Assembly (NCBI GenBank): GCA_022846035.1
Contig: AP025580.1
Span: 186,001-250,000, forward strand
DNA: 64,000 nt
DNA from: Christensenellaceae bacterium
GTDB taxonomy: Bacteria; Bacillota; Clostridia; Christensenellales; Christensenellaceae
Reading direction: 5' to 3'
Shown: in pieces, positions 1 through 15,541 of the stretch
Position numbering within the stretch: position 1 is the stretch's first letter
How the letters are laid out: the number at the start of each line of letters is the position of its first letter
The notes under the pieces: model-generated
What the model was told of the DNA's origin: nothing
The model's database searches: none
The model's input: the letters and a program-made list of their open reading frames with translations, nothing else
Position numbers and translations under genes: made by a program

Positions 1-651
1 GGATCGGTAAACAGCATGCATGACAGCTATACGCCTCTTAGTGGACTAGCGACAATGCTGCAAATGCAGCTGGGGGAAGTGATCTTTGGAGGCGTTGGAT
101 GCGGTCTTTACGGTATGCTTGCCTTTGCAATCATTGCCGTATTCCTGGCGGGACTGATGGTGGGCAGGACGCCCGAATACCTAGGTAAAAAAATTGAACC
201 GTTTGAAATGAAAATGGCGACGCTGGTCTGTCTGGCGACTCCGCTTGCGGCTTTGATCGGCACGGCAATCGCATGCTATATACCGTCTTCGATGGACAGT
301 CTTACCAATGGCGGACCGCATGGATTTTCGGAAATCCTGTATGCCTTTTCGTCGGGCGCAGGCAACAATGGCTCGGCATTCGCGGGCCTTAATGCCAATA
401 CGCCGTTTTTCAACATAGCAATCGGCATTGTCATGCTGTTTGTACGTTTTATGCCTATGATCGCAACCCTGGCGATTGCGGGTTCGATGGTACACAAGCA
501 AAAGGTAGCGGTGTCCGCAGGGACCCTGCCTACGCATAACGCGCTGTTCATCATCATATTGATTATTGTGGTATTGCTTGTGGGAGCGCTTTCGTTCCTT
601 CCGGCTCTGGCGGTAGGACCTATTGCGGAATATTTCCAGATGATCGGTTAA
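1..651 (+). CDS. kdpA: Potassium-transporting ATPase subunit KdpA, 3' part (5' end outside window)
   Basis: This is the C-terminal 216 residues of KdpA, the channel-like K+-binding subunit of the KdpFABC high-affinity potassium pump in the cytoplasmic membrane. The frame is open from base 1, so the true start lies upstream. The fragment starts at the conserved [10 protein letters not shown] segment and contains the [13 protein letters not shown]...GNNGSAFAG selectivity-filter region, followed by three hydrophobic helices. The stop is 15 bases before the kdpB start and a strong GGGGAGGAG ribosome site lies between them, so the genes are an operon. The identification rests on family motifs and on the adjacent kdpB and kdpC. 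Confidence 0.97.
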
Positions 652-666
652 GGGGAGGAGAAGATC

Positions 667-2736
667 ATGAATACGAAAAAACAAAAATTCGCGAACAAAC
701 AAATGATTGGACGCGCCCTGAAAGATTCTTTCTTAAAGCTCAATCCGAAAATACAGGTGCAAAATCCGGTTATGTTTGTTGTCTATATCGCGTCCATCCT
801 CACAACAGCGCTTTATGTACTGGCGTTGGTGGGGGTCAGAGACAATACCCCGGGTTTTATCCTAGGGATTGCAGTCCTTTTGTGGCTGACAGTTCTGTTT
901 GCCAACTTTGCCGAGGCCATCGCCGAAGGCCGCGGCAAAGCGCAGGCAGATGCACTGCGAGCGGCAAAACGTGATATTACCGCGAAAAAAATACCGTCCG
1001 CAGAGCAAAAGGACAAGGTGACGGAGGTTCCCTCGGCAACACTGCGCAAGGGAGATATTGTATTCGTCGCGGCAGGAGAACAGATTCCTGCGGACGGCGA
1101 TGTGATTGATGGCGCGGCTTCCGTTGATGAAAGCGCAATTACCGGAGAATCCGCACCCGTTATCAGGGAAAGCGGCGGCGATCGGTGTGCGGTCACGGGC
1201 GGAACGACAGTCATTTCCGATTGGCTGGTCGTTCTGGTGACCAGCAATCCGGGAGAAAGCTTCCTCGATAAAATGATCGCGATGGTGGAGGGAGCCGCGC
1301 GTAAAAAGACGCCTAACGAGATCGCGCTGCAAATATTGCTGGTGACGCTGACAATCATTTTTCTGGTGGTAACCGTGTCACTGTATGCATTCGCTCATTT
1401 CTCGGCGCAGATGCAGGGAATGGACGCTAACCCGACATCCGTCACATCCTTGCTGGCGCTGCTGGTATGTCTTGCGCCGACCACCATTGGCGCATTGCTT
1501 TCCGCGATCGGTATTGCGGGCATGAGCCGTTTAAACCAGGCAAACGTACTGGCGATGAGCGGACGGGCGATCGAAGCAGCCGGAGATGTGGATGTACTGC
1601 TTTTGGATAAAACAGGAACGATCACCCTGGGAAACAGGCAGGCCAGCGAATTTGTTCCTGTAGACGGCACGGATATAAACGAACTGGCGGACGCGGCGCA
1701 GCTTTCTTCCCTGTCCGACGAGACGCCGGAAGGCAGGAGCGTCGTCGTATTGGCAAAAGAAAAGTTTGGGATACGCGGACGCAACTTAGGCGAACTCAAT
1801 GCAACCTTTATACCATTTTCAGCTAAAACCCGTATGAGCGGGGTGGATTATGAGGGGAACGAAATACGCAAGGGCGCGGTTGACGCGATCTGCAGCTATG
1901 CATTGGAACACGGGCATCAGTACTCGGACGAATGCCGGAAAGTTGTAAAACGCGTATCAAATAGCGGAGGAACACCGCTGATTGTCGCTAAAAACGGCAG
2001 GATACTGGGCGTGATCCATTTGAAAGATATTATCAAACAGGGAGTACGGGAAAAGTTTTCCGACCTCAGAAAAATGGGCATCAAAACGATCATGATTACA
2101 GGAGATAATCCACTGACGGCTGCCGCAATCGCGGCGGAAGCGGGCGTGGATGATTTCCTGGCAGAAGCGACGCCCGAAGGGAAGCTGGAACTAATCCGTG
2201 ATTACCAGAAAAGCGGCCATATGGTGGCAATGACAGGCGACGGAACCAACGACGCACCCGCGCTCGCGCAGGCGGATGTTGCGGTAGCGATGAATACGGG
2301 CACGCAAGCTGCAAAAGAAGCGGGAAACATGGTAGATCTCGATTCCTCGCCAACTAAGCTGATAGACATTGTGCGCATTGGTAAACAGCTTTTGATGACG
2401 CGCGGCGCGCTGACAACGTTTTCCATCGCCAACGATATTGCAAAATATTTTGCGATCATCCCGCCGCTTTTTTTCCTGTTATTTCCGCAACTGCAGGCGC
2501 TTAATATTATGGGGCTTCATAGTCCGGAAAGCGCCATCCTTTCGGCCGTGATCTATAACGCGGTTATCATCGTGGCGCTCATTCCGCTTGCTTTAAAGGG
2601 CGTGAAGTACAGGGAAGTACCGGCGGGAAAGCTGCTGATGCGCAATCTTCTCGTGTTTGGAGCGGGCGGCGTCATCCTGCCGTTTATCGCTATCAAGCTG
2701 ATTGACATGCTGCTGGTGGCGGTAGGAATGTTTTAG
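667..2736 (+). CDS. kdpB: Potassium-transporting P-type ATPase, KdpB
   Basis: KdpB is the catalytic P-type ATPase subunit of KdpFABC and couples ATP hydrolysis to K+ uptake through KdpA. At 689 residues it has normal family length. Visible motifs are the actuator-domain TGES (in [12 protein letters not shown]), the phosphorylation motif DKTGTIT near residue 317, [11 protein letters not shown], and [14 protein letters not shown] of the nucleotide and hinge regions. The membrane helices sit near residues 35-90, 215-290 and 580-689. The start follows a GGGGAGGAG site, and kdpC begins 11 bases after the stop. The gene looks intact, unlike the regulator at the end of the operon. Confidence 0.98.
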
Positions 2737-2747
2737 GAGGAAATGAT

Positions 2748-3353
2748 ATGTGGAAAACGATAAAAACGGTTGCGCCTAAGGCGCTGGTGTTTATACTGAT
2801 ACTAACGCTTGTTTGTGGATTGGTCTATCCGCTTGTCATCACGGGAATTTCGCAAATCGCGTTCCCAAAACAGGCAAACGGCAGTATCATAGAGATAGGC
2901 GGCGTACAGTATGGCAGTGAACTCCTAGCACAGGAATTTACAGGCGGGCAGTATCTGCATGGACGCGTAATGAACGTGAACACGGAAACATTTACCGATG
3001 ATGAAGGAGAGCCGTTGCTGTTCGCAGGACCGACAAACTTATCTCCGGCGAGTGAGGACTTTGATGCCTTGATGGCGGAGAGGGTCAATAAGATACGTGC
3101 GGAAAATCCGGAAATGGGAGATACGCCAATTCCCGTCGACCTTGTGACAAGCTCCGGTAGCGGGCTGGATCCGCATATATCGCCTGCGGGGGCGGAGTAT
3201 CAGGTGAAGAGGATTGCAAAGGCTCGAAATATGGAAGAGCAGCAGGTGCGCGACGTGATTACGAAATATACGGACGGACGCTTCCTGGGAATTTTCGGAG
3301 AACCGACGGTGAATGTACTGAAAGTAAACCTGGCCCTTGACGGGTTATTATAA
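2748..3353 (+). CDS. kdpC: Potassium-transporting ATPase subunit KdpC
   Basis: KdpC is the single-span subunit that stabilises the KdpFABC complex. It is 201 residues long with one N-terminal membrane helix (about residues 10-32, rich in L, V and I), then a periplasm-facing domain with the conserved SGSGLDPHISP motif and YQVKRIAKAR. The start is preceded by GGAGGAAATGAT. The stop overlaps the region leading into the sensor gene, whose own start lies 17 bases downstream of the KdpC stop. The gene belongs to the kdpABC operon. Confidence 0.97.
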   Translation: MWKTIKTVAPKALVFILILTLVCGLVYPLVITGISQIAFPKQANGSIIEIGGVQYGSELLAQEFTGGQYLHGRVMNVNTETFTDDEGEPLLFAGPTNLSPASEDFDALMAERVNKIRAENPEMGDTPIPVDLVTSSGSGLDPHISPAGAEYQVKRIAKARNMEEQQVRDVITKYTDGRFLGIFGEPTVNVLKVNLALDGLL

Positions 3354-3369
3354 TAATAGGAGAGAGAAT

Positions 3370-6300
3370 ATGGAGCATCGTCCCGATCCGGCCGAATTGC
3401 TTAGGCAGATCCAGCAGGATGCGCCGGTAAAGGCGCAGGGAAAACTGAAAATCTTTTTTGGCTATGCGGCTGGCGTAGGAAAAACCTACGCTATGCTGGA
3501 AGCCGCACAGGATGCAAAAAAGCGCGGCGTTGATGTGGTAGTCGGGTATGTGGAACCGCATACCCGTCCGGAGACGCTCGCGCTTATTGATGGTCTTGAG
3601 GTACTTCCGCCGCTTGAAGTGGCATACAAAGGGATTGCACTTAAGGAATTTGATCTTGACGCGGCGCTAAAGCGCAACCCCAAGCTCGTTTTGGTGGACG
3701 AACTGGCGCATACCAATGCGCCGGGGCTTCGGCATAAGAAACGGTGGGGAGATATTGAAGAATTGCTGAATGCAGGCATCAATGTTTATACGACGGTCAA
3801 TGTCCAGCATATTGAGAGTCTGAACGATATTGTCGCGTCCATTACGCAGGTTGTGGTGCGCGAACGAATTCCGGATAAAGTGTTTGATATGGCGGACGAG
3901 GTAGAAATTATCGACGTCGAGCCGTCCGTTTTGTTAGAGCGGCTGCATGAAGGGAAAATATATCAGGAAAAGCATGCCAGCGAGGCGTTGACTCATTTCT
4001 TTGTACGGGAAAACCTGACGGCGCTGCGCGAGATCGCGTTGCGGCGCGTCGCCGATCGGGTCAACCAGGAAAACGAAAACGTTCCGGCGCGGGAACATAT
4101 TTTGGTATGTCTGAGCACTTCGCCTTCCAACGCAAAGGTGATTCGCACAGCGGCGCGCATGGCGGAGGTGTTTCATGCCTCGTTTACCGCGCTGTTTGTG
4201 GACACACCTGAAAATCCGGCGCTGGATGCGCAGGGAGCAAAAAACTTGCGGGATAATATACGGCTGGCAAAGGAGCTGGGGGCAAAGATCGCAACGACGT
4301 ACGGGGAGAATGTGCCGTTACAGATTGCCGCATTTGCGCGTGTAAGCGGGATTACCAAAATTGTGACAGGCAGGACGAAACGCAAAGCACCGTTCATCGG
4401 GCGGAGGCAGAATTTTGTGGACCAGTTGATTATGCACGCGCCCGAACTGGAGATTTTTGTAATACCGGACAGCGAGGCAAAGGAATATAAGCCGCGCAGG
4501 CGGCATGCCTGGGGAAAATTCCGTTTTTCACTGAGGGATTTTGTCAGGATGTTGCTGATCATGGCGGCGGCGGTACTGGTCGGTATTTTGTTTGATTATA
4601 TTGGTTTCAGCCAAACAAACGTGATCGTGGTGCTGATATTGGGCGTACTTATAACGGCAAACCAGACGCGCGGCCGCTTTTACGGCGTGGTCGCATCTGT
4701 GATTGGCGTGCTGCTCTATAATTTTTTCTTCACTGATCCACGGTTTACCTTTAACGCATATGGCGCAGAGTATCCGGTCACCTTTGCGATTATGTTGGTT
4801 GCCGCGCTGATCACGAGCGCGCTTACCAGCAAGGTAAAGAGACAGGCGGCGTCCGCGACGGTTAACGCTTTCAGGACAAACATCCTTTTGGAAGCGGACC
4901 GCAGCCTGCAGGATGCAAAAACACGTGATGAAATTGCCAAGCGCGCACTGGTACAGATCGCTCGGTTTACGCATCGTCCGGCAGTTATTTACCTTACGGA
5001 ATACGGGGAAGTATGCAGTGTATATGCTGTTAATGAGGATGGGGAAGCTTTGGAAAAGGCGGCCTTTTTAAACGAGGATGAACGGGCGGTCGCCGCCTGG
5101 TGCGTCCGCAACCGACATTCCGCAGGAAAAGGAACGAACACTCTGCCCGGCGCGGCAGCACAGTATACGCCTCTTACCGCAAAGGAAGGCGTGCTGGCCG
5201 TCGCAGGCGTGGTCGCGGACGAGGAAGAGCAGCTTGACAGCATGCGGGATTCCCTGCTTTATGCCCTGTATGCGCAAATTACATCCGCGCTCGAGCGGTA
5301 TGCGCTCAATGAAGCGCAGCGAAAAGCGGAAATGCAGGCGGAAAGCGAGCGCTTCCGTTCCAATCTGCTGCGTGCGGTTTCACATGACCTGCGCACACCG
5401 CTCACGAGCATATCGGGCAGTGCAAATTCAATACTGACGAACGATTTTGACAAGGAAACCAGGGATAAACTGATTACAGGGATATATGACGATTCGCTGC
5501 GGCTTATAAACCTGGTGGAGAACCTGTTGTCCGTTTCGCGGATCGATAACAATCATGTGAAGCTGCGTACCGAGCCGCAACTGGTATTTGAAATCATTGA
5601 AGAAGCGCTGCGGCATGTGAGCCGCAAGCTTTCCGAACATCATTTACTTACGCATTTGCAGGACGATATGATGACGGTGAATGTGGACGTGCAGTTGATT
5701 GTGCAGGTGTTTATCAATATCATCGACAATGCGGTCAAATATACGGACGCCGGATCGACGATCGAGATTCTTGTGCTGCGCAAGGGAAACGAGGCCGTTG
5801 TACGTATCGGGGACGACGGTAAGGGGATCAGCGACCGCGATAAAAAGAATATATTCGATATGTTTTATACCGCAGGCGGAAACAAGGGAGACAGCCGCAG
5901 GGGACTGGGACTGGGATTGGCGCTTTGCAAGATCATCGTGGAAGCGCACGGCGGCAGGATCGCCGTCATGGACAACAGTCCGGTACGTGGAACGGTATTT
6001 GAATTTACGCTGCCCATAGCGGAGGTGATAAACATCGTTGAGGACGATCAGGCGATCCGTAATTTTATGACGGCGACGCTCGATTTGAACGCTTATCGGT
6101 GTATTGCCGCAGAGAGCGGGGAACAGGCGCTGATGTACGCGGTCACAAACCGGCCGGATATCATTATATTAGACCTTGGTCTGCCGGATATGGACGGTGT
6201 GGATATTATTAAAAAGCTGCGTGGCTGGTCGCAGTGCCCGATCATTGTCGTCGGCGCGCGCAGCGAGGATAAGGACAAGATCAGTGCGCTTGACGCAGGC

Positions 6301-6618
6301 GCGGATGATTACCTGACAAAGCCTTTTTCCATGGACGAGCTTTTAGCGCGTATACGGGTTGCCGTGCGTAAGTTAAATCCCGCACAGGCAGGCGGAGAGG
6401 CCGTATTCCGAAACGGCGGGCTGAAGATCGATTATTCCGCCGGCTGCGTATATCCTGACGGAAAGGAATGCCACCTGACGCCTATGGAATATAAGATGGT
6501 TTGCCTGCTTGCAAAAAATGTAGGAAGGGTGCTTACACACAAATACATTTTAAAAGAGGTGTGGAACAGCACGCTGGAAAGCGATATTCCATCGCTGCGG
6601 GTTACGGAAAATGAGTAA
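3370..6618 (+). CDS. kdpD: KdpD osmosensor kinase fused in frame to a C-terminally truncated KdpE response regulator
   Basis: One reading frame of 1082 residues carries all of KdpD and most of KdpE. The order is: KdpD domain with P-loop GYAAGVGKT; universal-stress-like domain; four membrane helices (about residues 390-490); GAF-like region; histidine-kinase core with SHDLRTPLTS (His about 672) and the ATPase boxes; then from about residue 900 a receiver (VEDDQAIRNFM, Asp about 935 in LDLGLPDMDG, TKPFSMDEL) and a partial OmpR-type winged helix. KdpE homologues continue past SLRV with the rest of the recognition helix and the wing. Here SLRV is followed by TENE and a stop, so DNA binding is probably impaired. 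At the junction, 6021-6030 reads like a ribosome site (GGAGGTGATA) followed by ATC where an ATG would be expected, so separate KdpE initiation at ATC or ATA remains possible. The start ATG is chosen for its AGGAGAGAGA site. Identity is certain; functionality of the regulator part is doubtful. Confidence 0.9.
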   Translation: MEHRPDPAELLRQIQQDAPVKAQGKLKIFFGYAAGVGKTYAMLEAAQDAKKRGVDVVVGYVEPHTRPETLALIDGLEVLPPLEVAYKGIALKEFDLDAALKRNPKLVLVDELAHTNAPGLRHKKRWGDIEELLNAGINVYTTVNVQHIESLNDIVASITQVVVRERIPDKVFDMADEVEIIDVEPSVLLERLHEGKIYQEKHASEALTHFFVRENLTALREIALRRVADRVNQENENVPAREHILVCLSTSPSNAKVIRTAARMAEVFHASFTALFVDTPENPALDAQGAKNLRDNIRLAKELGAKIATTYGENVPLQIAAFARVSGITKIVTGRTKRKAPFIGRRQNFVDQLIMHAPELEIFVIPDSEAKEYKPRRRHAWGKFRFSLRDFVRMLLIMAAAVLVGILFDYIGFSQTNVIVVLILGVLITANQTRGRFYGVVASVIGVLLYNFFFTDPRFTFNAYGAEYPVTFAIMLVAALITSALTSKVKRQAASATVNAFRTNILLEADRSLQDAKTRDEIAKRALVQIARFTHRPAVIYLTEYGEVCSVYAVNEDGEALEKAAFLNEDERAVAAWCVRNRHSAGKGTNTLPGAAAQYTPLTAKEGVLAVAGVVADEEEQLDSMRDSLLYALYAQITSALERYALNEAQRKAEMQAESERFRSNLLRAVSHDLRTPLTSISGSANSILTNDFDKETRDKLITGIYDDSLRLINLVENLLSVSRIDNNHVKLRTEPQLVFEIIEEALRHVSRKLSEHHLLTHLQDDMMTVNVDVQLIVQVFINIIDNAVKYTDAGSTIEILVLRKGNEAVVRIGDDGKGISDRDKKNIFDMFYTAGGNKGDSRRGLGLGLALCKIIVEAHGGRIAVMDNSPVRGTVFEFTLPIAEVINIVEDDQAIRNFMTATLDLNAYRCIAAESGEQALMYAVTNRPDIIILDLGLPDMDGVDIIKKLRGWSQCPIIVVGARSEDKDKISALDAGADDYLTKPFSMDELLARIRVAVRKLNPAQAGGEAVFRNGGLKIDYSAGCVYPDGKECHLTPMEYKMVCLLAKNVGRVLTHKYILKEVWNSTLESDIPSLRVTENE

Positions 6619-6709
6619 TTACGGTCGGAGATGAAAAAACGCCCATCTATAAAGGCAGGTAGGATAAAGAAGTAAGTTATCACATCTAAAAGGCAACGGG
6701 CAAACTGAA

Positions 6710-6741
6710 AAAACAAGGAAGAAATTTATCTTCCTTGTTTT
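6710..6741. terminator. Bidirectional rho-independent terminator
   Basis: A 13-base perfect inverted repeat (AAAACAAGGAAGA / TCTTCCTTGTTTT) with a 6-base loop has A-rich and T-rich flanks on both sides. It would end the kdp operon on the plus strand. It overlaps the last codons of the convergent gene on the minus strand, which it could also terminate. Confidence 0.75.
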
Positions 6742-7217
6742 TTTAATGTTTTTACAAAAAAATGTGCGATTCGTTTCACATCATCCATAGCATTCGTCGT
6801 TCTGGTATAGTCACCGAATGTTCCTTCTTCTATCATTCGTTTCCGATTTTTTTCGATCAGTTCACTTTCTACGTTTGTCGCAATACTCCCCGCAGCGTCC
6901 GATAAAGCATCTTTTATCAGTTCTTTTTTGTTTTCTTTCAAGATTTCTCCGGCAATTTTTCTCGATTGTCTTTTTTGTTCTTTCGTCATTTTCGCGGGAC
7001 GCGGCGTACATCTCGGCAGAATTGCATTGAACCGGTCTGATAAGCCCGCAGATGCAAACCGTTCTTCAAATTCCACCGCATTGGAACAACTTTCTCCAAG
7101 GACAGTGAGTTCTTCTATAAAAGAATCGACTTCATTCTGCATCTCTTGCGGAACACCATAATATTGATACAAAAAATCAATCCTTAAATCGACACATTTT
7201 TTTACATCATTAACCAT
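6726..7217 (-). CDS. Hypothetical protein, charged and helical, 163 aa
   Basis: I do not recognise this protein. It is hydrophilic, with no signal peptide or membrane segment. It is acidic in the first third (MVNDVKKCVDLRIDFLYQYY), with a lysine- and glutamate-rich helical stretch around residues 90-140 (TKEQKRQSRKIAGEILKENK), resembling a small cytoplasmic helical protein. The ATG at 7217 is preferred over the upstream TTG because a GGAGAAAAGG site lies just before it, and because it then starts after the reconstructed stop of the upstream gene (7247). Base composition is AT-rich compared with the kdp operon. It probably forms a two-gene unit with the frameshifted gene at 7247-7551. Confidence 0.6.
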   Translation of the reverse strand: MVNDVKKCVDLRIDFLYQYYGVPQEMQNEVDSFIEELTVLGESCSNAVEFEERFASAGLSDRFNAILPRCTPRPAKMTKEQKRQSRKIAGEILKENKKELIKDALSDAAGSIATNVESELIEKNRKRMIEEGTFGDYTRTTNAMDDVKRIAHFFVKTLKKQGR

Positions 7218-7246
7218 ATCATTTTCCTTTTCTCCATTTATCCTGC

Positions 7247-7551
7247 TCAAGAAATAAATGATTTCTCATTTTCACGAATAAAATTCGTGCATACTTCCAA
7301 AAACTCTGCCTGCGCGTCATCGTAATATTCCGGATGCAAAGTTCCCATTGCAGAAATAGTTTCTCCGTGGTTTTATAAAAACCATTCCATTGGTCAATCT
7401 GGTATTTTTCTGCAATTCTTGCTAATTTTTCCAGAACAGGCCCGCTTATCGTTACGTCTACAATGACGTCACCTGCATCCATCTCCGCATATAAATGCAT
7501 CCCATCCGGCCGCTGTTCAATAGAATAGATATAGATTTCGTCCGTTGACAT
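7247..7551 (-). pseudogene. Small hypothetical gene broken by a single-base frameshift
   Basis: The ATG at 7551 opens a frame reading MSTDEIYIYSIEQRPDGMHL and onward to QWNGFYK. Past the A-run on the coding strand (plus coordinates 7371-7374) that frame turns into basic, unnatural sequence. The next frame instead continues sensibly as NHGETISAMGTLHPEYYDDA and ends FIRENEKSFIS with a TGA at 7247. Adding one A to the run joins the two into a smooth protein of about 101 residues. This is a deletion in a homopolymer: either a real mutation or a sequencing error. The family is unknown to me; the joined protein looks like a small soluble alpha/beta protein. It lies 30 bases upstream of the next gene's start. 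Confidence 0.7.
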
Positions 7552-7882
7552 ACCGCTATGGCTAAATGAAAAAAATGATTTCCATCGGTTCTGCTTTTAT
7601 TGCTTTTTTGAGGGACGTTAACGGCACATTTACAGCCTTATGCCTTATGTCCAAAATTCATTGAGCAACCATAGGCAAACAACAGGAATACCAGCGTTAT
7701 TAGAAAAAATACCTGTCCCTTCACGGCTTTTCCTTTTATATCGGCAGCAGCGGCATAGATCTGATCGCTGTCTCATACGGCCTATTTATCTTAACCTTAA
7801 ATTGAACTTATTTTAAACGCATATAAATTGGGGAATCTGTTAAATATAGAAACAGACTCCCCAAAGATTGTTGGCTTGCTTG
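7552..7882. other. Gene-free stretch of about 330 bases in the accessory island
   Basis: I see no convincing gene here. A 32-codon plus-strand frame starting at 7568 has no ribosome site. A short plus-strand hydrophobic frame near 7725-7800 resembles the end of a membrane protein but has no start. The only clear element is the terminator hairpin at its right end. Confidence 0.5.
7830..7862 (-). terminator. Terminator-like hairpin downstream of the 7883-8296 gene
   Basis: The arms GGGGAATCTGTT and AACAGACTCCCC form a 12-base stem with one G-U pair and a 9-base loop. The hairpin begins about 20 bases past the stop of the minus-strand membrane protein gene. The T-run is weak, so termination could be partial. 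Confidence 0.6.
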
Positions 7883-8296
7883 TTATTGTTTCGCTTTATA
7901 CTGAAACGCCGCGATCAAATAAAGGATCGGAACAATCAGTCCTGTCACAATAGACAAAATGCTGAAACTGTCAGGATAACCCACCAGTGTCATTATGATG
8001 GATACGACGCACAACGCGACAGTTAAAATTCCGCAAATCATGCAACTGTTTACTTTTTCCGGAACATTCCAATTTTTGATTCCCAGAATCCCTGCAATCA
8101 ATTCAAAAATCGCGCTGACCAAGGCTATAACAAGAGACGCCGTCAATAGTTCCACCGGTACTGTCACTCCGGCCAATCCTGCCAATGATACGACCATCCC
8201 GATCCCCATCAGCGAGAGCAATCCGCCGATGATTGCGATGATCCCGAAAATCAGCATAATAATTCCCATTACTTTTAAAAATTTTGAACTCTCCAT
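7883..8296 (-). CDS. Small four-helix membrane protein, 137 aa
   Basis: The protein is unrecognised beyond being an integral membrane protein. Four hydrophobic helices are visible at roughly residues 8-35, 45-70, 82-105 and 112-132, with a short polar loop KNWNVPEKVNS between helices 2 and 3 and a basic C-terminus (YKAKQ). The first helix contains MGIIMLIFGIIAIIGGLLSL. The start follows an AAGGAGATAAAG site. It is followed by a terminator hairpin and lies 36 bases downstream of the lipoprotein gene, so the two may be cotranscribed. Composition is AT-rich, like its island neighbours. Confidence 0.65.
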   Translation of the reverse strand: MESSKFLKVMGIIMLIFGIIAIIGGLLSLMGIGMVVSLAGLAGVTVPVELLTASLVIALVSAIFELIAGILGIKNWNVPEKVNSCMICGILTVALCVVSIIMTLVGYPDSFSILSIVTGLIVPILYLIAAFQYKAKQ

Positions 8297-8332
8297 GCTA
8301 TCTTTATCTCCTTACATTAATATTATATGAAT

Positions 8333-8683
8333 TTAATCCCTCGTATATTCATAAGTTGTTTCCAGCGATTCATCTGTCAACGTCAGTACATCACCGCTAA
8401 TGGAATAGGTATACGCCATTGCTTTTTCGCTGTCCATTCCAAACAACTGGGCATAAATATTAAGCTGATCCCCGTCTATATCATATTTAAAATCATAAGA
8501 CAACAATGCATTCTCATTATGCCCTGTACCGTCTGCTTTAAATTCAAAAGTTTCCTCCATAAGATCGGAACCCTTCCATGTTCCCACTAAAGGTGAAACT
8601 TCTTCCTGCGCTCCTCCTGCACCGCAGCCCGCGAACAGGCAAAAGACAAACAAAACTAAAATAACAACGCAAACTTTTTTCAT
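8333..8683 (-). CDS. Small lipoprotein with a lipocalin-like repeat fold
   Basis: This is a 116-residue exported lipoprotein. It has MKK, a hydrophobic core and the lipobox LFAGC, with the cysteine at residue 20. The mature part reads LVGTWKG...FEFKADGTGHN...YDFKYDIDGDQL...YTYSISGDVLTLTDES. The WKG, F-x-DGTG and L-x-G-D-x-LTL pattern is typical of the small lipocalin-like or DUF5640-like lipoproteins of Firmicutes, whose function is generally unknown. An AGAGAAGAAATG start context supports the ATG at 8683. It is upstream of, and probably cotranscribed with, the four-helix membrane protein. Confidence 0.75.
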   Translation of the reverse strand: MKKVCVVILVLFVFCLFAGCGAGGAQEEVSPLVGTWKGSDLMEETFEFKADGTGHNENALLSYDFKYDIDGDQLNIYAQLFGMDSEKAMAYTYSISGDVLTLTDESLETTYEYTRD

Positions 8684-8796
8684 TTCTTCTCTCCCGTATC
8701 ATTTTTAAATTTTAGTTGTGATTTCACCAACATAGAATTGATCTGCAAAAGGCCTTTTTCTGTTCAAGATAATACCAAAATCTTACGGGACAGGAT

Positions 8797-8813
8797 AGTA
8801 CCCAATGGGTACT
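8797..8813. repeat. Perfect 8-base inverted repeat AGTACCCA-a-TGGGTACT
   Basis: A 17-base palindrome lies in the gap between the lipoprotein gene and the LuxR-type regulator. GTACC cores recur in the terminator at 8851-8867 and again at 10421-10426 just upstream of the regulator. It could be a regulator site upstream of the lipoprotein gene (whose start is at 8683) or a hairpin; the sequence does not decide. Confidence 0.5.
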
Positions 8814-8844
8814 CTTTAGTTTGCTTCCGTTTTTATCCCACAAT

Positions 8845-8867
8845 AAAAAAGGTACCACGCGGGTACC
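8845..8867 (-). terminator. Terminator of the membrane LuxR-type regulator gene
   Basis: On the minus strand GGTACC-CGCGT-GGTACC is followed directly by six T residues, 42 bases past the stop of the regulator gene. The stem is short (6 bases) but perfectly placed. Confidence 0.6.
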
Positions 8868-8908
8868 ATTCCTGAAAAAAATTCGGTTTGTCAGGCTTTA
8901 TAATTGCT

Positions 8909-10360
8909 TTAATCGGTCAATTTTTCAATTTCAACCAACCGGTTACTGCGGCGGAGCAGGTCAATATAGAGCAACAGTTCTTCTTTCGTGCTGACCGCAA
9001 GCTTTCGATAGATATTTTTATTGTGCTTTCGCACCGTATAAATGCTGATAAATGCCAATCCCGGTATTTCGGCAATTTCATATCCGTCTATATAATATTG
9101 CAGAATATTCCGTTCCGCCGGAGTCAATGTTGCGATCCGGTCCACAAAAGAACCCAGCATATTTAAAACTTCAGAGGCAAACTGTCCATGCCCAGATTCT
9201 TCAGCCGCTCGTTCCTGTCCTGCGGCTTTTAATTCTTCTGACTTGACGGTCACTGGTTGCGTTTCGTGCCCTATATACGATAAGTCTACAAAACGCATCA
9301 AGCTTTCCACCGTCCAGTCTGTTCCCGCCAAATCTACTGCGCAAATTTGTATGGGAAGCTGCGCCATTTGATTTTTGTACTGCCATTCACCAGAAAATTT
9401 CCGGGCTATTTTCTCTGTCAATAGTTGCATATCATAACTGTTATGGAATACCGTCAGAGCAAAATGTCCTCTTTCACAGTCATACACGTCTATTTTTTTA
9501 GATAGGCTATTGAGCCATTCTGCCGCACTGGCCATAAATCCATTAACATATCCTGCGCCAAGCGCGGCAATATCAAAATAATGGGAACGCGAGAGCTTGA
9601 CTATCGTCACATAAAGGCTGGATTGATTTTGGACTGTCAAATCAATGCTTCGCAAAAAAGCCGCGCGGTTATATACTTTTGTAACCGGATTATGGGTTAC
9701 GTCCAGATTTTCTACTGTAGTCAAAAATCCAAAAATACCGATCGACTGGAAAAAAAGTTCCAAAAGTTGATGCGGCATGAAAACCTGCTGCACAAAAATA
9801 GGAATAATGCTGAAAATAAGCAGCATGATCGCCGCATACCGCTGTGATTTAAGCAATAGATTCCGAAACCGTATTGCTAAATATACCGTAAACAACATAT
9901 ATAAATATCCCGCGCCATATAAAGCATAGATCATAACGCCGTGGGAGTAAAGGCCATTTTCATCATAATAAAATACCCAATGGAAAACCGGATTCAGCGC
10001 CAGCGGTAGAAAAATGGCAAGGACTTCCGGCAACAGAAACAGAACAAAAAGCGGCTTTTTAATGCGATACTTCAATCCAAGCAATACGATCATATACCAT
10101 GCAAACAAGCATGCTGTGCTGGTATGGACAAATAAGAAAATATAGTTGAGGATATCCCGTGAAAAATACGTATATTGATCTATATAAGAATTACCGACAG
10201 AACTCCAGATATCAAAAACAGCGGAGATCAGCGCTGCAATAATAACAAATAGCAGTAATTGATTGGATTCCTTTTGTAACCCTTTTTGGGAAATAATCAC
10301 ATATAGGGAAAAAATGGAGATCACTCCGGCGCAAATATCAAAGGTTACATTGTAAATCAT
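8909..10360 (-). CDS. Membrane-anchored LuxR-type regulator with degenerate GGDEF-like middle domain
   Basis: The protein has 483 residues and an unusual architecture. The first 230 or so residues hold seven hydrophobic helices, like the 7TM sensor domains of histidine kinases. The middle (residues about 230-370) begins with NPVTKVYNRAAF, matching the DxLTGLxNRxxF entry of GGDEF domains, but the active-site loop reads CERGHFAL, so cyclase activity is not expected. A linker leads to a C-terminal LuxR helix-turn-helix (about 415-480: LTPAERNILQYYIDGYEIAE, then IYTVRKHNKNIYRKL). It probably senses a signal at the membrane and acts on DNA as a one-component regulator. The ATG at 10360 with GGAGAG upstream is chosen over a TTG 15 bases earlier. 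It has its own terminator, and GTACC repeats flank the gene. Confidence 0.75.
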   Translation of the reverse strand: MIYNVTFDICAGVISIFSLYVIISQKGLQKESNQLLLFVIIAALISAVFDIWSSVGNSYIDQYTYFSRDILNYIFLFVHTSTACLFAWYMIVLLGLKYRIKKPLFVLFLLPEVLAIFLPLALNPVFHWVFYYDENGLYSHGVMIYALYGAGYLYMLFTVYLAIRFRNLLLKSQRYAAIMLLIFSIIPIFVQQVFMPHQLLELFFQSIGIFGFLTTVENLDVTHNPVTKVYNRAAFLRSIDLTVQNQSSLYVTIVKLSRSHYFDIAALGAGYVNGFMASAAEWLNSLSKKIDVYDCERGHFALTVFHNSYDMQLLTEKIARKFSGEWQYKNQMAQLPIQICAVDLAGTDWTVESLMRFVDLSYIGHETQPVTVKSEELKAAGQERAAEESGHGQFASEVLNMLGSFVDRIATLTPAERNILQYYIDGYEIAEIPGLAFISIYTVRKHNKNIYRKLAVSTKEELLLYIDLLRRSNRLVEIEKLTD

Positions 10361-10398
10361 AGAATGTCTCTCCAACCGTCCATCGAATGGGAAAATAA

Positions 10399-10698
10399 TT
10401 ATATATCATAAATTTTATTGGTACCATCAATAATTTTTCGCGCCCATTCCTTCACGCTTATTTTGTAATGATTCAGCTCTGCTTGACTCCTAATTATGGC
10501 AAATTCGCGACAATTAAAAACCGGGCTATGTATCTATTCCCAAATTCCTGAAAATTCAACTGTATTCCGGTTACGCAACCAGTCTGAAATGAAAAAGTCT
10601 CCGTCCTTTGCCTTAATCATATCTGTAAGGGAGATACGGTCTTTATCTTCAATTTTTAGAATTGTGATTTCTGTGGAATCGACAACTAATTTTTTCAT
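10399..10698 (-). pseudogene. KilA-N domain gene remnant with in-frame amber codon
   Basis: From the ATG at 10698 the frame reads MKKLVVDSTEITILKIEDKD, then RISLTDMIKAKDGDFFISDW and LRNRNTVEFSGIWE, which is the N-terminal half of a KilA-N domain as found in phage and chromosomal genes. A TAG at 10534-10536 then interrupts it. The same frame continues after the stop with IHSPVFNCREFAIIRSQAEL and KISVKEW, still KilA-N-like, before ending at TAA 10399. The conserved second half (the NAIGI...GRYGGTYAHKDIAFEFASW region) is missing. KilA-N proteins bind DNA. The ATG overlaps the stop of the upstream XRE gene (ATGA), so the two were a translationally coupled pair. Here both are dead. Confidence 0.8.
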
Positions 10699-11057
10699 TT
10701 TTCTTTTTTCCCTGCCATATCCAACATCATTTTTCTGAGTTTAGTATTCATAGGGGAAGCGGGCTCGAAACACATATCCACAAATTCTTTCCATGTATCA
10801 TCCTTAGCGGCACGGTCTTTCAATATCTGCGCCTCATAATTATATAATTTGCCCTGCAGTATCCGTGCGGCAAAAAATAGTCCAAAGAAACAACAAAATA
10901 TTCCGCATATTTTAGTAGTATCTTATATAGTGCGTCTGAATGTTTTTTTCATAACGGTTTATTGCCGATCGCACTGTTCCGAACACTTCTGCAAGGTTTT
11001 TTGTGAAAAACCAATTCTACCGCACAATATACGAAGTCTATCGTCTACTGTCACCAT
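10695..11057 (-). pseudogene. XRE-family regulator remnant broken by at least four frameshifts
   Basis: A start ATG at 11057 with an AAGGAG site opens MVTVDDRLRILCGRIGFSQK. The protein then continues in a second frame as NLAEVFGTVRSAINRYEKN (a helix-turn-helix), in a third as LYKILLKYAEYFVVSLDY, in another as IFCRTDT, and finally as LQGKLYNYEAQILKDRAAKD and CFEPASPMNTKLRKMMLDMA to a TGA that overlaps the KilA-N start. Read together these match a familiar clostridial XRE regulator of about 120 residues with a conserved C-terminal tail. Each segment is well preserved, so decay is recent or the local sequence has indel errors. XRE-KilA-N gene pairs are common in clostridial genomes. Confidence 0.75.
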
Positions 11058-11115
11058 GCACATTTCTCCTTAACACAGTACTTATTCATATAACATGATA
11101 TATCATATGAAGATT

Positions 11116-11745
11116 TTATTCAACGCTATTTTTAGATTTTTCTTTTTCTACTAATTTTGTCCTGTAACTCCGTCGTCTCATAGGAACATTCTCATTGACC
11201 AGTTCCCGCGCCTGCGTAAGCGCCCGCATGATCCCCAGCAGGTACGCATCCTCCACATCCGGCACAGTCAGGTGTTCGTTCCCGATCCACAGGCCCGGCT
11301 GCGGCAGGGCGTCTCCATCCGCCATCAGGTATGGTTCATCCGCATCGAGGTACAGGAAATCCATGATCCGGTCAACCAGGAAATTCGTCTGCACCAATGT
11401 ACTTAACATATTCAAATATTTCCTGCTGTAGCCGTCGCTGTCATACTGCTTCGCGTGCTCCGTGATCCGCTCCAGCGCACCGTCGGACAGCCGCGTGGCC
11501 TCCTTCACATCCTGAAGCTCCCGCTCCGGCGTGTGACTTTTCCCCAGCAGGTAATCATACGAGCATTGTAAAATATCTGTCATGATCTCCAGCGTTTCCA
11601 CCGAATAGCTCACTTTCCCCGACATATATTTCTTTAAGCTGGACAGGCCTACTCCCGCCGCTTCGGCAAATTCTTCCTGTGTGAACCCCCTGTCCTTAAT
11701 TACCTTCTTTAATATGGCTCCTATTTTGGCTTTATCCACATTCAA
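11116..11745 (-). CDS. XRE-family transcriptional regulator, 209 aa
   Basis: An intact DNA-binding regulator. The N-terminal helix-turn-helix (residues about 8-65) reads ILKKVIKDRGFTQEEFAEAA, GVGLSSLKKYMSG, then VETLEIMTDILQCSYDYLLG. The C-terminal 140 residues are helical and polar with no recognised domain and a basic end (RRRSYRTKLVEKEKSKNSVE). It lies at the left end of the GC-rich mobile segment, with GC-rich codons like the downstream mob genes, so it is probably cargo or regulator of that element. The start is preceded by GGGGGATTGA. No partner gene is cotranscribed. Confidence 0.8.
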   Translation of the reverse strand: MNVDKAKIGAILKKVIKDRGFTQEEFAEAAGVGLSSLKKYMSGKVSYSVETLEIMTDILQCSYDYLLGKSHTPERELQDVKEATRLSDGALERITEHAKQYDSDGYSRKYLNMLSTLVQTNFLVDRIMDFLYLDADEPYLMADGDALPQPGLWIGNEHLTVPDVEDAYLLGIMRALTQARELVNENVPMRRRSYRTKLVEKEKSKNSVE

Positions 11746-12271
11746 TCCCCCGAATTATATAAATATTAGCTCTTTTGAGCTCTGTATGTTTTGAGGATAA
11801 TATTTTTACGGGATTTTGTCAAGCCCTGAACGGCAGCTTGTATCCTGCCAACTGCACAATGATACTTCCGTCCAGCCACAGCCCGGGCGCAGCACATACA
11901 TATGCGCCGCACGCAATGGGGACGGCCCGGCACAGGAATGCGGGGAGGAAGGCTCGAAACGGTCTTTCCTATGAAACGGCAGAATGCAAAGTTATCCACA
12001 ACCGGTCCGCAGGGAGCGAAAAAAATTCCCGGCAAACATCGAGGTAAATGGATCACATCACATACCCGCCCTTGCGGCGGGTATGGTGGGTATGGCAAGC
12101 TCCCCAAGTGGCACGCCACTTGGTACCCACCCCGCACGCGGGGACCCCGGGAGCTTGCAAAGGGGAGACCCCCCTTGATCCCCCTTATGCGAAACGGCAG
12201 GCTGCCTGCCTCCGCTTCGCTGTCCCGTGCGCCCGCAAGCGAAGCGGGCCGGCGCGGGCAAAGAAAAAAGC
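11746..12271. other. Non-coding lead region of the mobilizable element
   Basis: About 525 bases separate the XRE regulator from the mobC remnant. I find no gene with a ribosome site. The left half is featureless apart from one exact DnaA-box-like TTATCCACA at 11992-12000. The right half (from 12062) is packed with nested inverted repeats, annotated separately as a candidate oriT. Open frames here on both strands are GC-driven shadows. Confidence 0.5.
12062..12180. other. Candidate origin of transfer (oriT) with nested inverted repeats
   Basis: Four hairpins lie just upstream of the mobilization genes. ATACCCGCC/GGCGGGTAT has perfect 9-base arms at 12062-12070 and 12076-12084. GCAAGCTCCC/GGGAGCTTGC has perfect 10-base arms at 12095-12104 and 12149-12158. 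The latter encloses CCAAGTGGC/GCCACTTGG (12104-12112, 12115-12123) and CCCCGC/GCGGGG (12130-12135, 12138-12143). The enclosing pair gives a cruciform-like three-way structure. The position directly before mobC and the relaxase, and the inverted-repeat layout, fit oriT of MOB-type elements. The nick site cannot be assigned from sequence alone. Confidence 0.6.
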
Positions 12272-12592
12272 ATGGAAAGAGTGGTGCATATCGTAACAAG
12301 AAGCAGGACAAGGAACATCGGGATCAGGGTAAACGAGCAGGAGTAGACGCTCATCCAAAGGAAAGTGCAGTTATCCGGATTGACGCTGCGGGAATACCTC
12401 CTGCGGTGTATCACAGGCAAGGAGATCGTCGTCCATGAAGGCGGGAATATGGTAGTAGCGGAGCTCAAGAGAATCGGCAACAACCTCAACCAGCTTACTT
12501 ATCTTACCAACGCCGGGCGCATTTATGACTGTGAGCGGGAGCTGCAAAACCTGTATACCGAGGTACGGGAGGTGCGCAGGGCATGGCAATAA
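12272..12592 (+). pseudogene. mobC: MobC-like relaxosome accessory gene with in-frame amber codon
   Basis: From the ATG at 12272 the frame reads MERVVHIVTRSRTRNIGIRV, NEQE, then TAG at 12344, and continues in the same frame as TLIQRKVQLSGLTLREYLLR, and ELKRIGNNLNQLTYLTNAGR to the stop at 12592. The RNIGIRV...GNNLNQL pattern is the ribbon-helix-helix and conserved C-terminal motif of MobC proteins, which help relaxases open oriT. The amber codon replaces one residue between two conserved halves, so it is a nonsense mutation. A shortened product from GTG 12365 would lack the DNA-binding strand. The stop overlaps the relaxase start (ATGGCAATAA), as in intact elements. Confidence 0.75.
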
Positions 12593-13279
12593 TTAAGGCG
12601 GTAAATTCATGGGCGGGCCTTGCGCGGGCCATAAACTACATCGCAAGCGGCGGGAAAACGGAATGCAGGCTGACCGGTGGGCATAACTGCTCTTCCATGT
12701 ACGCCATCGAGGAAATGCGGGACACCAAAGAGGCATGGCGCAAAACGGGAGGCAGTACAAACACTTTATCCAGAGTTTTCCCCCGGCGAGGACATTACCC
12801 CGCGCGAAGCCTTTGACATCGCCGGGGAGCTCATACGCCGCTCCCCGCTCTTTCGCGGCTATGAGGTGTGTTACGCCACCCATGCAGACAGGGGGCATCT
12901 CCACACGCACTGGATCGTCAATTCTGTCAGCTTTGAGCATGGGTACAAATTCCGGTATTTCAAGCGGATGCTCCAGGAATTAAAGGACTTATCTGACCGC
13001 ATCCTCAAAGAGCGCGGCAAAAGCATCTGCAAGCAGGGGCGCTCCGTTACCTCCTTCCGCACCAAAGCATACAGGGCTTTGGAAAAAGCTGCGCAGGGCA
13101 CATACAAAAGCTGGCTGCTGGATACCGTCATTGCAGTGCAGGATGCGATGCAAATGTCCCAAAGCAGGGACGCCTTCATACAGGTACTGGAAGATAAAGG
13201 ATATGCCGTGAACTGGAAGGACAGCAGGAAATATATCACTTTTGTCACTCCGGACGGAAAGAAAGTCCGGGATAAAACG
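12583..13279 (+). pseudogene. MOB-family relaxase remnant with two frameshifts and lost C-terminus
   Basis: The ATG at 12583 opens MAIIKAVNSWAGLARAINYI and continues to EAWRKTGG. Near 12750 the sense moves to a second frame (RQYKHFIQSFPP), and near 12785 to a third (GEDITPREAFDIAGELIRRS, and CYATHADRGHLHTHWIVNSV). The HADRGHLHTHWIVN segment is the metal-binding three-histidine motif of MobA/Nic relaxases, which nick oriT and pilot DNA transfer. After KKVRDKT the family sequence ends, and the DNA passes within about 15 codons into a different mobilization ORF, so the rest of the relaxase has been deleted. The gene cannot make an active relaxase as read. Confidence 0.8.
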
Positions 13280-13316
13280 GCAGGACAGGGAGTGCTGGGA
13301 CAAGCTCGGCCAAAGG

Positions 13317-13622
13317 ATGCAGGACTTAGAGGACAGCAACCAGACCGTCAAAGACGCCATGCAGCAAGCCGCCGCTGGGACCGTGGGGACGATGAACACT
13401 CTTTATGAGGAGATGCAGGCGGATTGGAATAAGCTGTCCGGCAGCATCGGAGCGGCGGCGAAGCAATTTATTTCTTCCTCGCAAAAGGCAATGGCCAAGC
13501 TGCACGAGCAGGAGGAACGCTATTGGCGGGCACGGTATAGGCGCAATGCCTGGATCTGCATCTATCTCGCCGTTACCCCTGCTCTCGTACTGCTCGACAC
13601 GCTTATCCGATTGTTCGGATGA
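13317..13622 (+). CDS. Small mobilization-type protein with coiled coil and C-terminal membrane helix
   Basis: A 101-residue frame with a long polar helical stretch (MQDLEDSNQTVKDAMQQAAA to QKAMAKLHEQEERYW) is followed by a basic segment RARYRRNA and one hydrophobic helix (WICIYLAVTPALVLLDTLIRL). Such coiled-coil plus membrane-anchor proteins follow relaxase genes in Tn4451-like and related mobilizable elements; I do not assign a finer function. The upstream part of the frame merges with relaxase-derived sequence, so a deletion has probably removed its normal start. The ATG at 13317 has only a close AAAGG. It may not be expressed. Confidence 0.5.
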   Translation: MQDLEDSNQTVKDAMQQAAAGTVGTMNTLYEEMQADWNKLSGSIGAAAKQFISSSQKAMAKLHEQEERYWRARYRRNAWICIYLAVTPALVLLDTLIRLFG

Positions 13623-13641
13623 TAAAAAGGAGGGACGCCAT

Positions 13642-13839
13642 ATTTCTACACACTCGCACCTTGACAGCAGAATATTTGACAAAGGCACAAAAGGCAAATC
13701 CGCCCTGCCGCAGCTTACGCTGCGTACGAAGATTGGCGGTACGGCATATATCGTGACCGGGCATTACAGCCCTGGCGCGAAGGAGGACATGGCCTCCAAA
13801 CTGCGGCGAGTGATCCTTTCGCACAAATTCCCCGCTTAG
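13642..13839 (+). CDS. tnpW: TnpW-like transposon protein with ATT in place of the start codon
   Basis: A 65-residue frame ends KGKSALPQLTLRTKIGGTAY, then IVTGHYSPGAKEDMASKLRR and VILSHKFPA. This is the pattern of TnpW, a small protein of unknown role found next to the large serine recombinase in Tn4451/Tn4453-type elements. A strong AAAAAGGAGGG site ends seven bases before an ATT codon that sits exactly where ATG is expected. Either the start has mutated from ATG to ATT or initiation is weak. The next gene is the serine recombinase, about 90 bases downstream, as in related elements. Confidence 0.65.
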   Translation: MSTHSHLDSRIFDKGTKGKSALPQLTLRTKIGGTAYIVTGHYSPGAKEDMASKLRRVILSHKFPA

Positions 13840-13930
13840 CATAGACTTGGACAGCCGGACGCGGTATACTGTACTTACGCTGCATTACCGTTTGTCCGAC
13901 TGCCTTGATACAAAGGAGGCATAAAAACAT

Positions 13931-15464
13931 ATGACAAAGCAGCCGGAGAGGATCACCGCACTGTATTGCAGGCTTTCACGCGACGACGATAATACCGGTA
14001 GTATTGCAAACCAAAAAAGAATATTGGGCACGTTCGCGCGAGCAGGGATTTTCCAATCCCCAGTTCTTTGTGGACGACGGGTATACCGGCACAAACTTTG
14101 AACGCCCGGATTTCAAACGGATGATAGAACTGGTAAAGGGTGGAACGATTGACACCGTCATTGTCAAGGATATGTCCCGCTTCGGCAGGGATTACCTCGG
14201 CGTGGGCTTTTACACCGAGGTAATGTTCCCTGAGCTGGACGTCCGGTTCATCGCCATTATGAGCGGCGTGGACAGCAGCGCACAGCAGGACACGGATTTC
14301 ATTCCCTTCCTCAATATCATTAACGAATGGTACGCTAAGGACACGGACGATCCCAAGCGCTGGATCGTGGATGAAGAGGCGGCGCAGGTTGTGCGCCGCA
14401 TTTACGATCTGTGCATGGACGGATATAGCCCCGCGCAGATCGCGGGAATTCTCCGCGCTGACAAGGTATTATGCCCGGCGGCCTATGCCGTGCAGCAGGG
14501 ACGCAAACAGTGCCATCCCGTTCCCGCCGATCCCTGCGAATGGCACGCCAATACCGTTGCAAGGATTCTATCCCGCAGGGAGTATCTCGGGCACACCGTT
14601 AACTTCAAGACCTTCACCAAGTCCTACAAGGATAAGAAGATAAGGCCCAACCCCGAAGAAAAGCAGATGGTGCTCGAGAACACGCAGGAGCCTATCGTCC
14701 CGCAGAAGGTGTGGGACAGGGTGCAGGAGCTCCGCTCGCACAAGCGCAGGCCGTGCAGCACCGGCAAGTCCAGTATATTCTCAGGGCTCGTCTATTGCGC
14801 CGACTGCGGCAGGAAGCTCTACTACTGCACCACCAACCATTTCAAGGCCGGTCAGGATTTCTTCGTCTGCTCGAACTACCGCAGCAACACCGGCACATGC
14901 TTCGCTTACTACATCCGGTAGGCTGTCCTTGAAAAACTCGTGCTTGAACACCTGCAACGCACACTTTCTTTCGCGCAAGGCTCCGAGGACGGCTTTGTAC
15001 GGGCGGTCAGCCGGCAGTCCGAACTGGAATGGAAGAAAGAGCGGCAGGACGTATGCAAAGCCCTCACTGCCGCCGTGCGCCGCATCAGCGACATCGACGC
15101 CCTGTTCCGCAGGCTCTATGAGGACAGCGTATCCGGCAGGATCACGGACGAAAGGTTCTCACTCCTGTCCGAAAGCTATGAGCAAGAACAGGCGAAGCTC
15201 AAAGGGGAGATTCCTGCCTTGCAGGAGCGCCTCGGCGAGACCGAGGGCAAAGTCCTCGGCATCGGCAATTTCCTTGCTCTGGTGCGCAGGTACACCCGCG
15301 TCGAGAGGCTCGACGGCGCCCTGCTCAATGAGTTCGTGCGCAGTATCACAGTCCACGCCCCCGACAGGTCTTCCGGCAAGCGCACGCAACAAATTGACAT
15401 TCTCTACAACTTTATTGGGGAGGTTCCTGCTAATTCCTTCCCACGCAGCGTAAAAGCGGTATAG
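13931..15464 (+). pseudogene. tnpX: Large serine recombinase (TnpX-like), broken by frameshift, deletion and amber codon
   Basis: The ATG at 13931 opens MTKQPERITALYCRLSRDDD with the catalytic serine in RLSRDD. Near 14030 one base is missing within GCGCGAG and the sense moves frame to EQGFSNPQFFVDDGYTGTNF, then DTVIVKDMSRFGRDYL. After NEWYAKDT about 30 residues usual in the family are missing before DDPKRWIVDEEAAQVVRRIY. The zinc-ribbon (CADCGRKLYY...CSNY) follows. YYIR is then cut by TAG at 14919, in a place where relatives have a glutamate codon. The same frame continues as AVLEKLVLEHLQRTL with the coiled-coil C-terminus to 15464. This enzyme class excises and integrates elements at short dinucleotide cores. 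It cannot be active here. Confidence 0.85.
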
Positions 15465-15541
15465 CCCCCTATGGGCTACACCGCTCATTCACTTCCTTAT
15501 TCTGCCTGCTCTAATAGACGGGCGCCTTTTTATTTTGGGAA

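Follow-up and report, generated by a model that had tools for sequence, protein, structure and literature searches.

The kdp locus of a gut Christensenellaceae bacterium (assembly GCA_022846035.1) encodes the sensor kinase KdpD and its response regulator KdpE in a single reading frame, which raises the question of whether this is a natural fusion or a decaying regulator, the two readings offered by the original prediction for this DNA. We analysed the surrounding 64,000-nt stretch of contig AP025580.1 (positions 186,001 to 250,000, hereafter referred to as the window) and found that the fusion is real and that regulator decay is the better supported of the two. In Escherichia coli, KdpE is an activator. 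The reading that we favour, and hold to be likely, is a recent loss of KdpE function by two small deletions in a formerly ordinary two-gene two-component system; the switch for an otherwise intact K+ pump is probably dead. The pump genes kdpA, kdpB and kdpC, which had been predicted to be intact, are indeed all open and full length (580, 689 and 201 aa). The features of the locus are listed below, where G004 denotes a genome of the same genus.

1 to 651, plus strand: 3' part of kdpA, an open frame (whole gene 580 aa, starting upstream of the window)
667 to 2736, plus strand: kdpB, an open frame of full length, 689 aa
2748 to 3353, plus strand: kdpC, an open frame of full length, 201 aa
3370 to 6034, plus strand: KdpD part (sensor domain, DUF4118, HisKA, HATPase), from Pfam, translation and 85% identity to G004 KdpD
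6034 to 6035, plus strand: junction scar, 19 nt fewer than G004, from alignment with G004 and C. hongkongensis
6035 to 6603, plus strand: KdpE part with the whole receiver profile and the winged helix up to SLRV, from Pfam and ortholog columns
6594 to 6604, plus strand: scar of an in-frame 87-bp deletion, from alignment with G004
6604 to 6618, plus strand: original C-terminus TENE and stop, kept (TEGE and stop in G004), from alignment with G004
6634 to 6650, plus strand: left half of the native kdpE terminator, from flank comparison
about 6651 to 15515, no strand assigned: mobile island carrying genes for a relaxase-like protein and a decayed large serine recombinase, inserted within the kdpE/flotillin terminator loop; gene families taken from the G002 copy
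15516 to 15540, plus strand: right half of the native terminator, with a flotillin-like gene on the minus strand coming next, from flank comparison

The fused frame opens with ATG at 3370 and runs to TAA at 6618 (1082 codons) with zero internal stops, which bears out the prediction of KdpD and KdpE in one frame, and it contains KdpD, the KdpE receiver and a partial winged helix. Pfam placed KdpD at residues 23-231 (PF02702, the sensor), DUF4118 at 393-496, HisKA at 663-727 and HATPase at 773-884, which is the order expected of a KdpD. Response_reg followed at 887-996 over its whole profile (1-111 of 111), and Trans_reg_C matched at profile positions 1-48 of 77 only, leaving the KdpE part without a complete winged helix. 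The receiver is complete and carries the phospho-acceptor Asp and the conserved Lys, and kinase and receiver stand on one polypeptide, as in a hybrid kinase. The match to the NCBIfam equivalog for KdpD (PRK10490.1; 698 bits, model positions 5-890 of 895) fell below a cut-off of 1123 bits that is probably suited to closer relatives of E. coli. The KdpE equivalog (PRK10529.1) matched at 188.6 bits, below its cut-off of 325 bits, and the matches to the TorS, ArcB and BarA profiles were likewise below their cut-offs.

The origin of the fusion could be traced by comparison with relatives. The nearest named relative in our genome scan was Christensenella hongkongensis (L009, 74%), and by kinship the window genome would itself belong to Christensenella. 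In G004, kdpD (896 aa) and kdpE (229 aa) are separate, overlapping and complete, with protein identities to the window of 85% for KdpD and 92% for KdpE; a separate, full kdpE thus exists in a relative, a point that had been put forward for checking. The junction in the window reads GGAGGTGATAAACATC. The 19 nt missing from it begin, in G004, with the GTG start of kdpE, and the G004 kdpD stop lies just past them in the other frame. Their loss therefore removed the kdpE start, left the kdpD stop out of frame and joined the two frames, in agreement with the earlier claim that the usual stop and start between sensor and regulator are gone. The junction sequence was also as described there, but the ATG expected at the site of an ATC was misplaced, since the G004 start is a GTG inside the missing 19 nt. 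A search of the host genome for a second, separate kdpE found none, the 27 other matches being at most 38% identical.

A second lesion lies near the 3' end of kdpE, where 87 bp are absent in frame at 6603/6604. The equivalent 29 residues in G004 (FMATLRKKIDREGKYIQTHIGVGYRMLRI) make up the recognition helix and the wing. In G004 the missing piece is flanked by GCTGCGGGTC and GCTGCGGATC, which are GCTGCGGRTC direct repeats, and because such short direct repeats bound the lost piece there, slippage between them likely made the deletion. In E. coli KdpE, R193 and R200 of the recognition helix and T215 of the wing are required for DNA binding and induction, according to the accessible portion of PMC3264566, which gives T215 as T214 in one passage. 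Beyond the gap, the window ends in the codons ACG GAA AAT GAG TAA, compared with ACG GAA GGT GAA TAA in G004; because 12 of these 15 positions are identical, we take the window stop to be ancestral rather than one met by chance in foreign sequence. By alignment count and the E. coli numbering offset, we take R193 to correspond to the R of SLRV, which is kept, and R200 and T215 to residues that are lost here. The original prediction that KdpE is cut inside its DNA-binding domain, ending SLRV-TENE-stop, is thus correct, but the cut is an internal 87-bp deletion and not the edge of foreign DNA. Its further claim that foreign DNA starts at SLRV-TENE did not hold, as the native stop and the left terminator half precede the island at about 6651.

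We further examined which conserved KdpE positions the window retains, using 63 orthologs (68 loci, described below, minus the duplicates L067, L068 and L070, the split hit L094 and the receiver-only match L049). Among the 51 columns conserved in at least 90% of these orthologs, the window keeps 41, deletes 8 and changes 2, one of the two changes being common to G004. The other replaces the switch Ser (position 80 of G004 KdpE) with Gly, a position held by Ser in 62 orthologs, Thr in 1 and Gly in 0, so that the Ser or Thr typical of KdpE is missing. Within the winged-helix stub we also found V147P, at a column with Pro in none of the 63 orthologs.

To place the fusion among relatives, 391 genomes of the class were searched, with no more than two candidates scored in the listed genomes. 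Of the 391, 52 gave a match at E ≤ 1e-60, and a stop-free match across both proteins occurred only in the window's own genome; the remaining matches running across both contain stops. A separate locus count started from 89 loci with a KdpE-like hit, after exclusion of the window or its duplicates (L001, L036, L037, L066 and L069), and omitted 21 loci without a KdpD hit (mostly other regulators). KdpD and KdpE shared one stop-to-stop frame in none of the 68 remaining loci. Three congeners (G002, G001 and G003; loci L070, L071 and L072, respectively) carry separate frames for the KdpD sensor (567-577 aa) and the kinase (496-528 aa) beside kdpE, and because sensor and kinase parts are separate genes there, the architecture of the kdp sensor is fluid in this genus. 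In another genome of the same family (G009, L049), a 328-aa frame has a KdpE-like receiver, and the receiver part alone matches KdpE.

The age of the loss was approached through substitution rates. The kdpE dN/dS between the window and G004 was 0.051, within the 0.03-0.08 range of kdpA-D, a rough value since dS (1.1) is near saturation. Amino-acid changes assigned to the window and G004 lineages numbered 8:3 in kdpE versus 69:75 in kdpA-D (kdpA by its last 211 codons only; 5 and 79 ambiguous changes omitted, respectively), with KdpD at 41:39 (51 ambiguous omitted). Relaxed constraint on kdpE was not significant in this comparison (Fisher's exact test, P = 0.13; P = 0.21 without the junction residue). 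Because long freedom from constraint on this branch would give far more changes, and given the low dN/dS and the lack of an internal stop, these results suggest that the loss of KdpE was recent.

A box TTTATA-N5-TTAATA is retained with two changes upstream of kdpA (TTTATACAATCTTAATAC in G004 and C. hongkongensis, TTTATGTAATCTTAATAC in the window genome). The E. coli KdpE target has a 6-5-6 direct-repeat layout in the accessible portion of PMC3264566, and the conserved box TTTATACAATCTTAATAC, of the same layout, is a likely KdpE operator. A scan of 18 loci at up to three mismatches found the box in 11, namely L069 (4717), L073 (4787), L009 (1326) and 8 of the 15 others; it was absent at this threshold from L070, L071, L072, L110, L111, L112 and L114 (7 of 18). 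Its placement relative to kdpA was established in only part of the loci that have it. The stretches from L105, L106 and L109 showed neither a kdpA nor a kdpB motif. One of the two box changes also occurs in G403 (L107), whose KdpE frame (L078) is full length. The putative operator is largely kept, as would be expected for a recent loss. The window genome has one TrkH-family match and none to the Kup family, and given the TrkH-family transporter, Kdp is not the sole possible K+ route. No known riboswitch was matched near kdp at the Rfam gathering score in L069, L065 and L009, the region upstream of kdpA being included for L069 and L009 only; the single Rfam match was a pemK RNA (L069, 17857-17975), away from kdp. 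The open-access papers listed for Christensenella and kdp included none on kdp regulation, judged by title and start of abstract.

Together, these observations point to the following course. Until recently, the locus would have held an ordinary two-component pair of separate kdpD and kdpE genes. The frames would have been joined by the loss of 19 nt where the two genes overlap, and, earlier or later, the 87 bp that encode the recognition helix and wing of KdpE would have dropped out between short direct repeats. Because both losses keep the reading frame, a membrane-bound protein of KdpD, receiver and stub could still be made, and most likely this protein is made, is located in the membrane and is unable to bind DNA. 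Unable to bind the kdp operator, it would leave kdpABC uncoupled from K+ switching via KdpE, K+ uptake could fall back on the TrkH-family transporter, and the regulator would be on its way to becoming a pseudogene.

Several observations count against this loss-of-function reading: the frame is open through both losses, for which we estimate a chance of about 1 in 9 and which decay does not need; the excess of changes in kdpE is not significant; and KdpD remains, as do the receiver's phospho-acceptor Asp and Lys. The open frame and the kept Asp and Lys, along with the low dN/dS, speak for a working hybrid kinase, in which a receiver tethered to KdpD, no longer able to bind DNA, would act as an internal phosphate sink or relay to another regulator; a receiver at the C-terminus is common among kinases. 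We consider this unlikely, because the switch Ser has become a Gly seen in none of the 63 orthologs, a winged-helix stub of no evident use is still kept and has gained a Pro foreign to its column, none of the 68 loci is fused, and the low dN/dS is explained by the time preceding the deletions. Similarly improbable is a newly born hybrid kinase whose output-less receiver damps or reroutes KdpD signalling, and which would be very young compared with the time that has passed since its lineage and the nearest relative parted.

The evidence comes from the assembly of one genome, the only one available for the species, and an assembly or sequencing artefact masking separate, complete genes is therefore worth weighing, although we give it little credence. 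The assembly consists of one 2.77-Mb contig at 99.76% completeness, differences of 19 and 87 nt that leave the frame cleanly open are unlike indels of 1-2 nt, and the Ser-to-Gly change is independent of both gaps. Read errors typically give indels of 1-2 nt, and assembly should not collapse repeats as short as about 10 bp. The mobile island, which begins only 32 nt past the stop of the fused frame, might also have cut kdpE upon insertion. We rejected it as the cause, a reading of very low probability, since native terminator halves flank the island on both sides, the native C-terminus and stop precede it, and no convincing missing piece of kdpE was found on the far side or elsewhere in the window; sister elements in G002 and G005 likewise sit inside terminators. 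A tblastn search of the window with the lost KdpE segment returned only short scattered matches besides the retained LRV-TENE stub, the best at 16703-16789 (E = 0.023, 38% over 29 residues).

The preferred reading, recent loss of KdpE function, amounts to what seems to be ordinary gene decay of recent date, and a parallel is known from another bacterium. In Mycobacterium tuberculosis B0/W148, a 2-nt deletion near the kdpD end produced a KdpDE fusion that its authors judged to be a loss of function, with kdpFABC elevated under normal K+ and largely unaffected by K+ depletion (PMC12210973, in its accessible portion). In both cases, a small deletion at the kdpD end joins the sensor and regulator frames (here 19 nt, at 6034/6035). 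Unlike that case, in which the accessible portion of the source names only the junction deletion, the window has also lost the helix, wing and switch Ser, and its bacterium belongs to a different phylum. Among the matches listed in our open-access literature search, judged by title and start of abstract, this was the only KdpD/KdpE fusion. A KdpD-KdpE fusion by small deletion is thus already published, and the present locus adds a second lesion and another phylum; if our reading is true, it is an independent instance and a natural case of a K+ pump outliving its regulator. Compared with canonical E. coli KdpD/KdpE (KdpE structures 4kny and 4kfc), the window proteins share the same domains up to the winged helix, the gene order kdpABC-D-E and a putative operator of 6-5-6 layout, but they are fused and lack the recognition helix, wing and switch Ser. 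The order of sensor, HisKA, HATPase and receiver is that of hybrid histidine kinases, from which the window protein differs in stemming from a recent gene fusion, carrying a DNA-binding stub and having lost the switch Ser.

The island itself lies inside the kdpE terminator. In G004, a flotillin-like frame on the minus strand directly follows kdpE and ends 30 nt past it, and its window homologue matches at 15674-17032, beyond the island. Related elements occupy different sites in G002 (93% over 5.5 kb) and G005 (87% over 5.5 kb). Genes for a relaxase, a NikA-like protein and a DUF4368-containing large serine recombinase are present in the G002 copy. These relaxase and DUF4368 recombinase elements of three Christensenella genomes lie in the window (6651-15515), in L122 (about 2920-11105) and in L123 (reverse strand). 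The insertions in the window, G002 and G005 each interrupt, within its loop, a palindrome resembling a terminator that is preceded by a run of A and followed by a run of T; the split halves at the three sites are CGCCCATCTAT / AGACGGGCG, GCCCTTCGCT / AGCGAAGGGC and GGCCCGGCGCA / TGCGCCGGGCC. The joined window flanks fold at -19.8 kcal/mol, compared with -10.8 (sd 2.7) for shuffled sequences and an average of -12.8 (sd 4.9) for random joins from the window, of which 98 of 500 reach -17. The folding energy is weak support for the terminator reading, and because random joins also fold well, the argument rests on the matching arms and T-runs.

We then extended the comparison to 30 recombinase loci, of which 18 (the window and G002 included) had sufficiently close sister sequences for the right-end junction to be placed by eye, at the point of divergence, and were scored. 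At least five T within 24 nt after the junction were found in 14 of the 18, compared with 136 of 1642 background windows (binomial test, P = 1.6e-12); the four junctions with no run of five T were L136, L150, L137 and L143. A left-arm search of 19 upstream stretches, run without a shuffled control and in which scores up to about 12 may arise by chance, gave the clearest arms in L128, L130, L135 and L145, and the best matches of L127, L129 and L131 fell in the element's own ends. These results suggest that the DUF4368 large serine recombinase family targets terminators, its insertions in this sample often lying at intrinsic ones. If true, terminator insertion would account for the spread of 'multi-targeting' recombinases with genes left unbroken, and such a terminator-landing family is perhaps a more interesting by-product than the kdpDE lesion. 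In the accessible portion of PMC10083194, a clade in which DUF4368 recombinases abound is called multi-targeting, and one integrase is given a TT core and target ends enriched in T and A; the word 'terminator' has zero occurrences in the main text as accessible. None of the literature matches listed names terminator targeting by serine recombinases; IS1272, with a different enzyme family, inserts at inverted repeats (PMC5678879, accessible portion).

The recombinase of the window island (14331-15461) matches only over residues 168-544 in one frame with an in-frame TAG and looks decayed; the G002 copy is open. About 1.07 kb of the island (6753-7827) has no counterpart at the corresponding position in G002 or G005, and part of it, at about 6742-7244, matches G001 at 84%.
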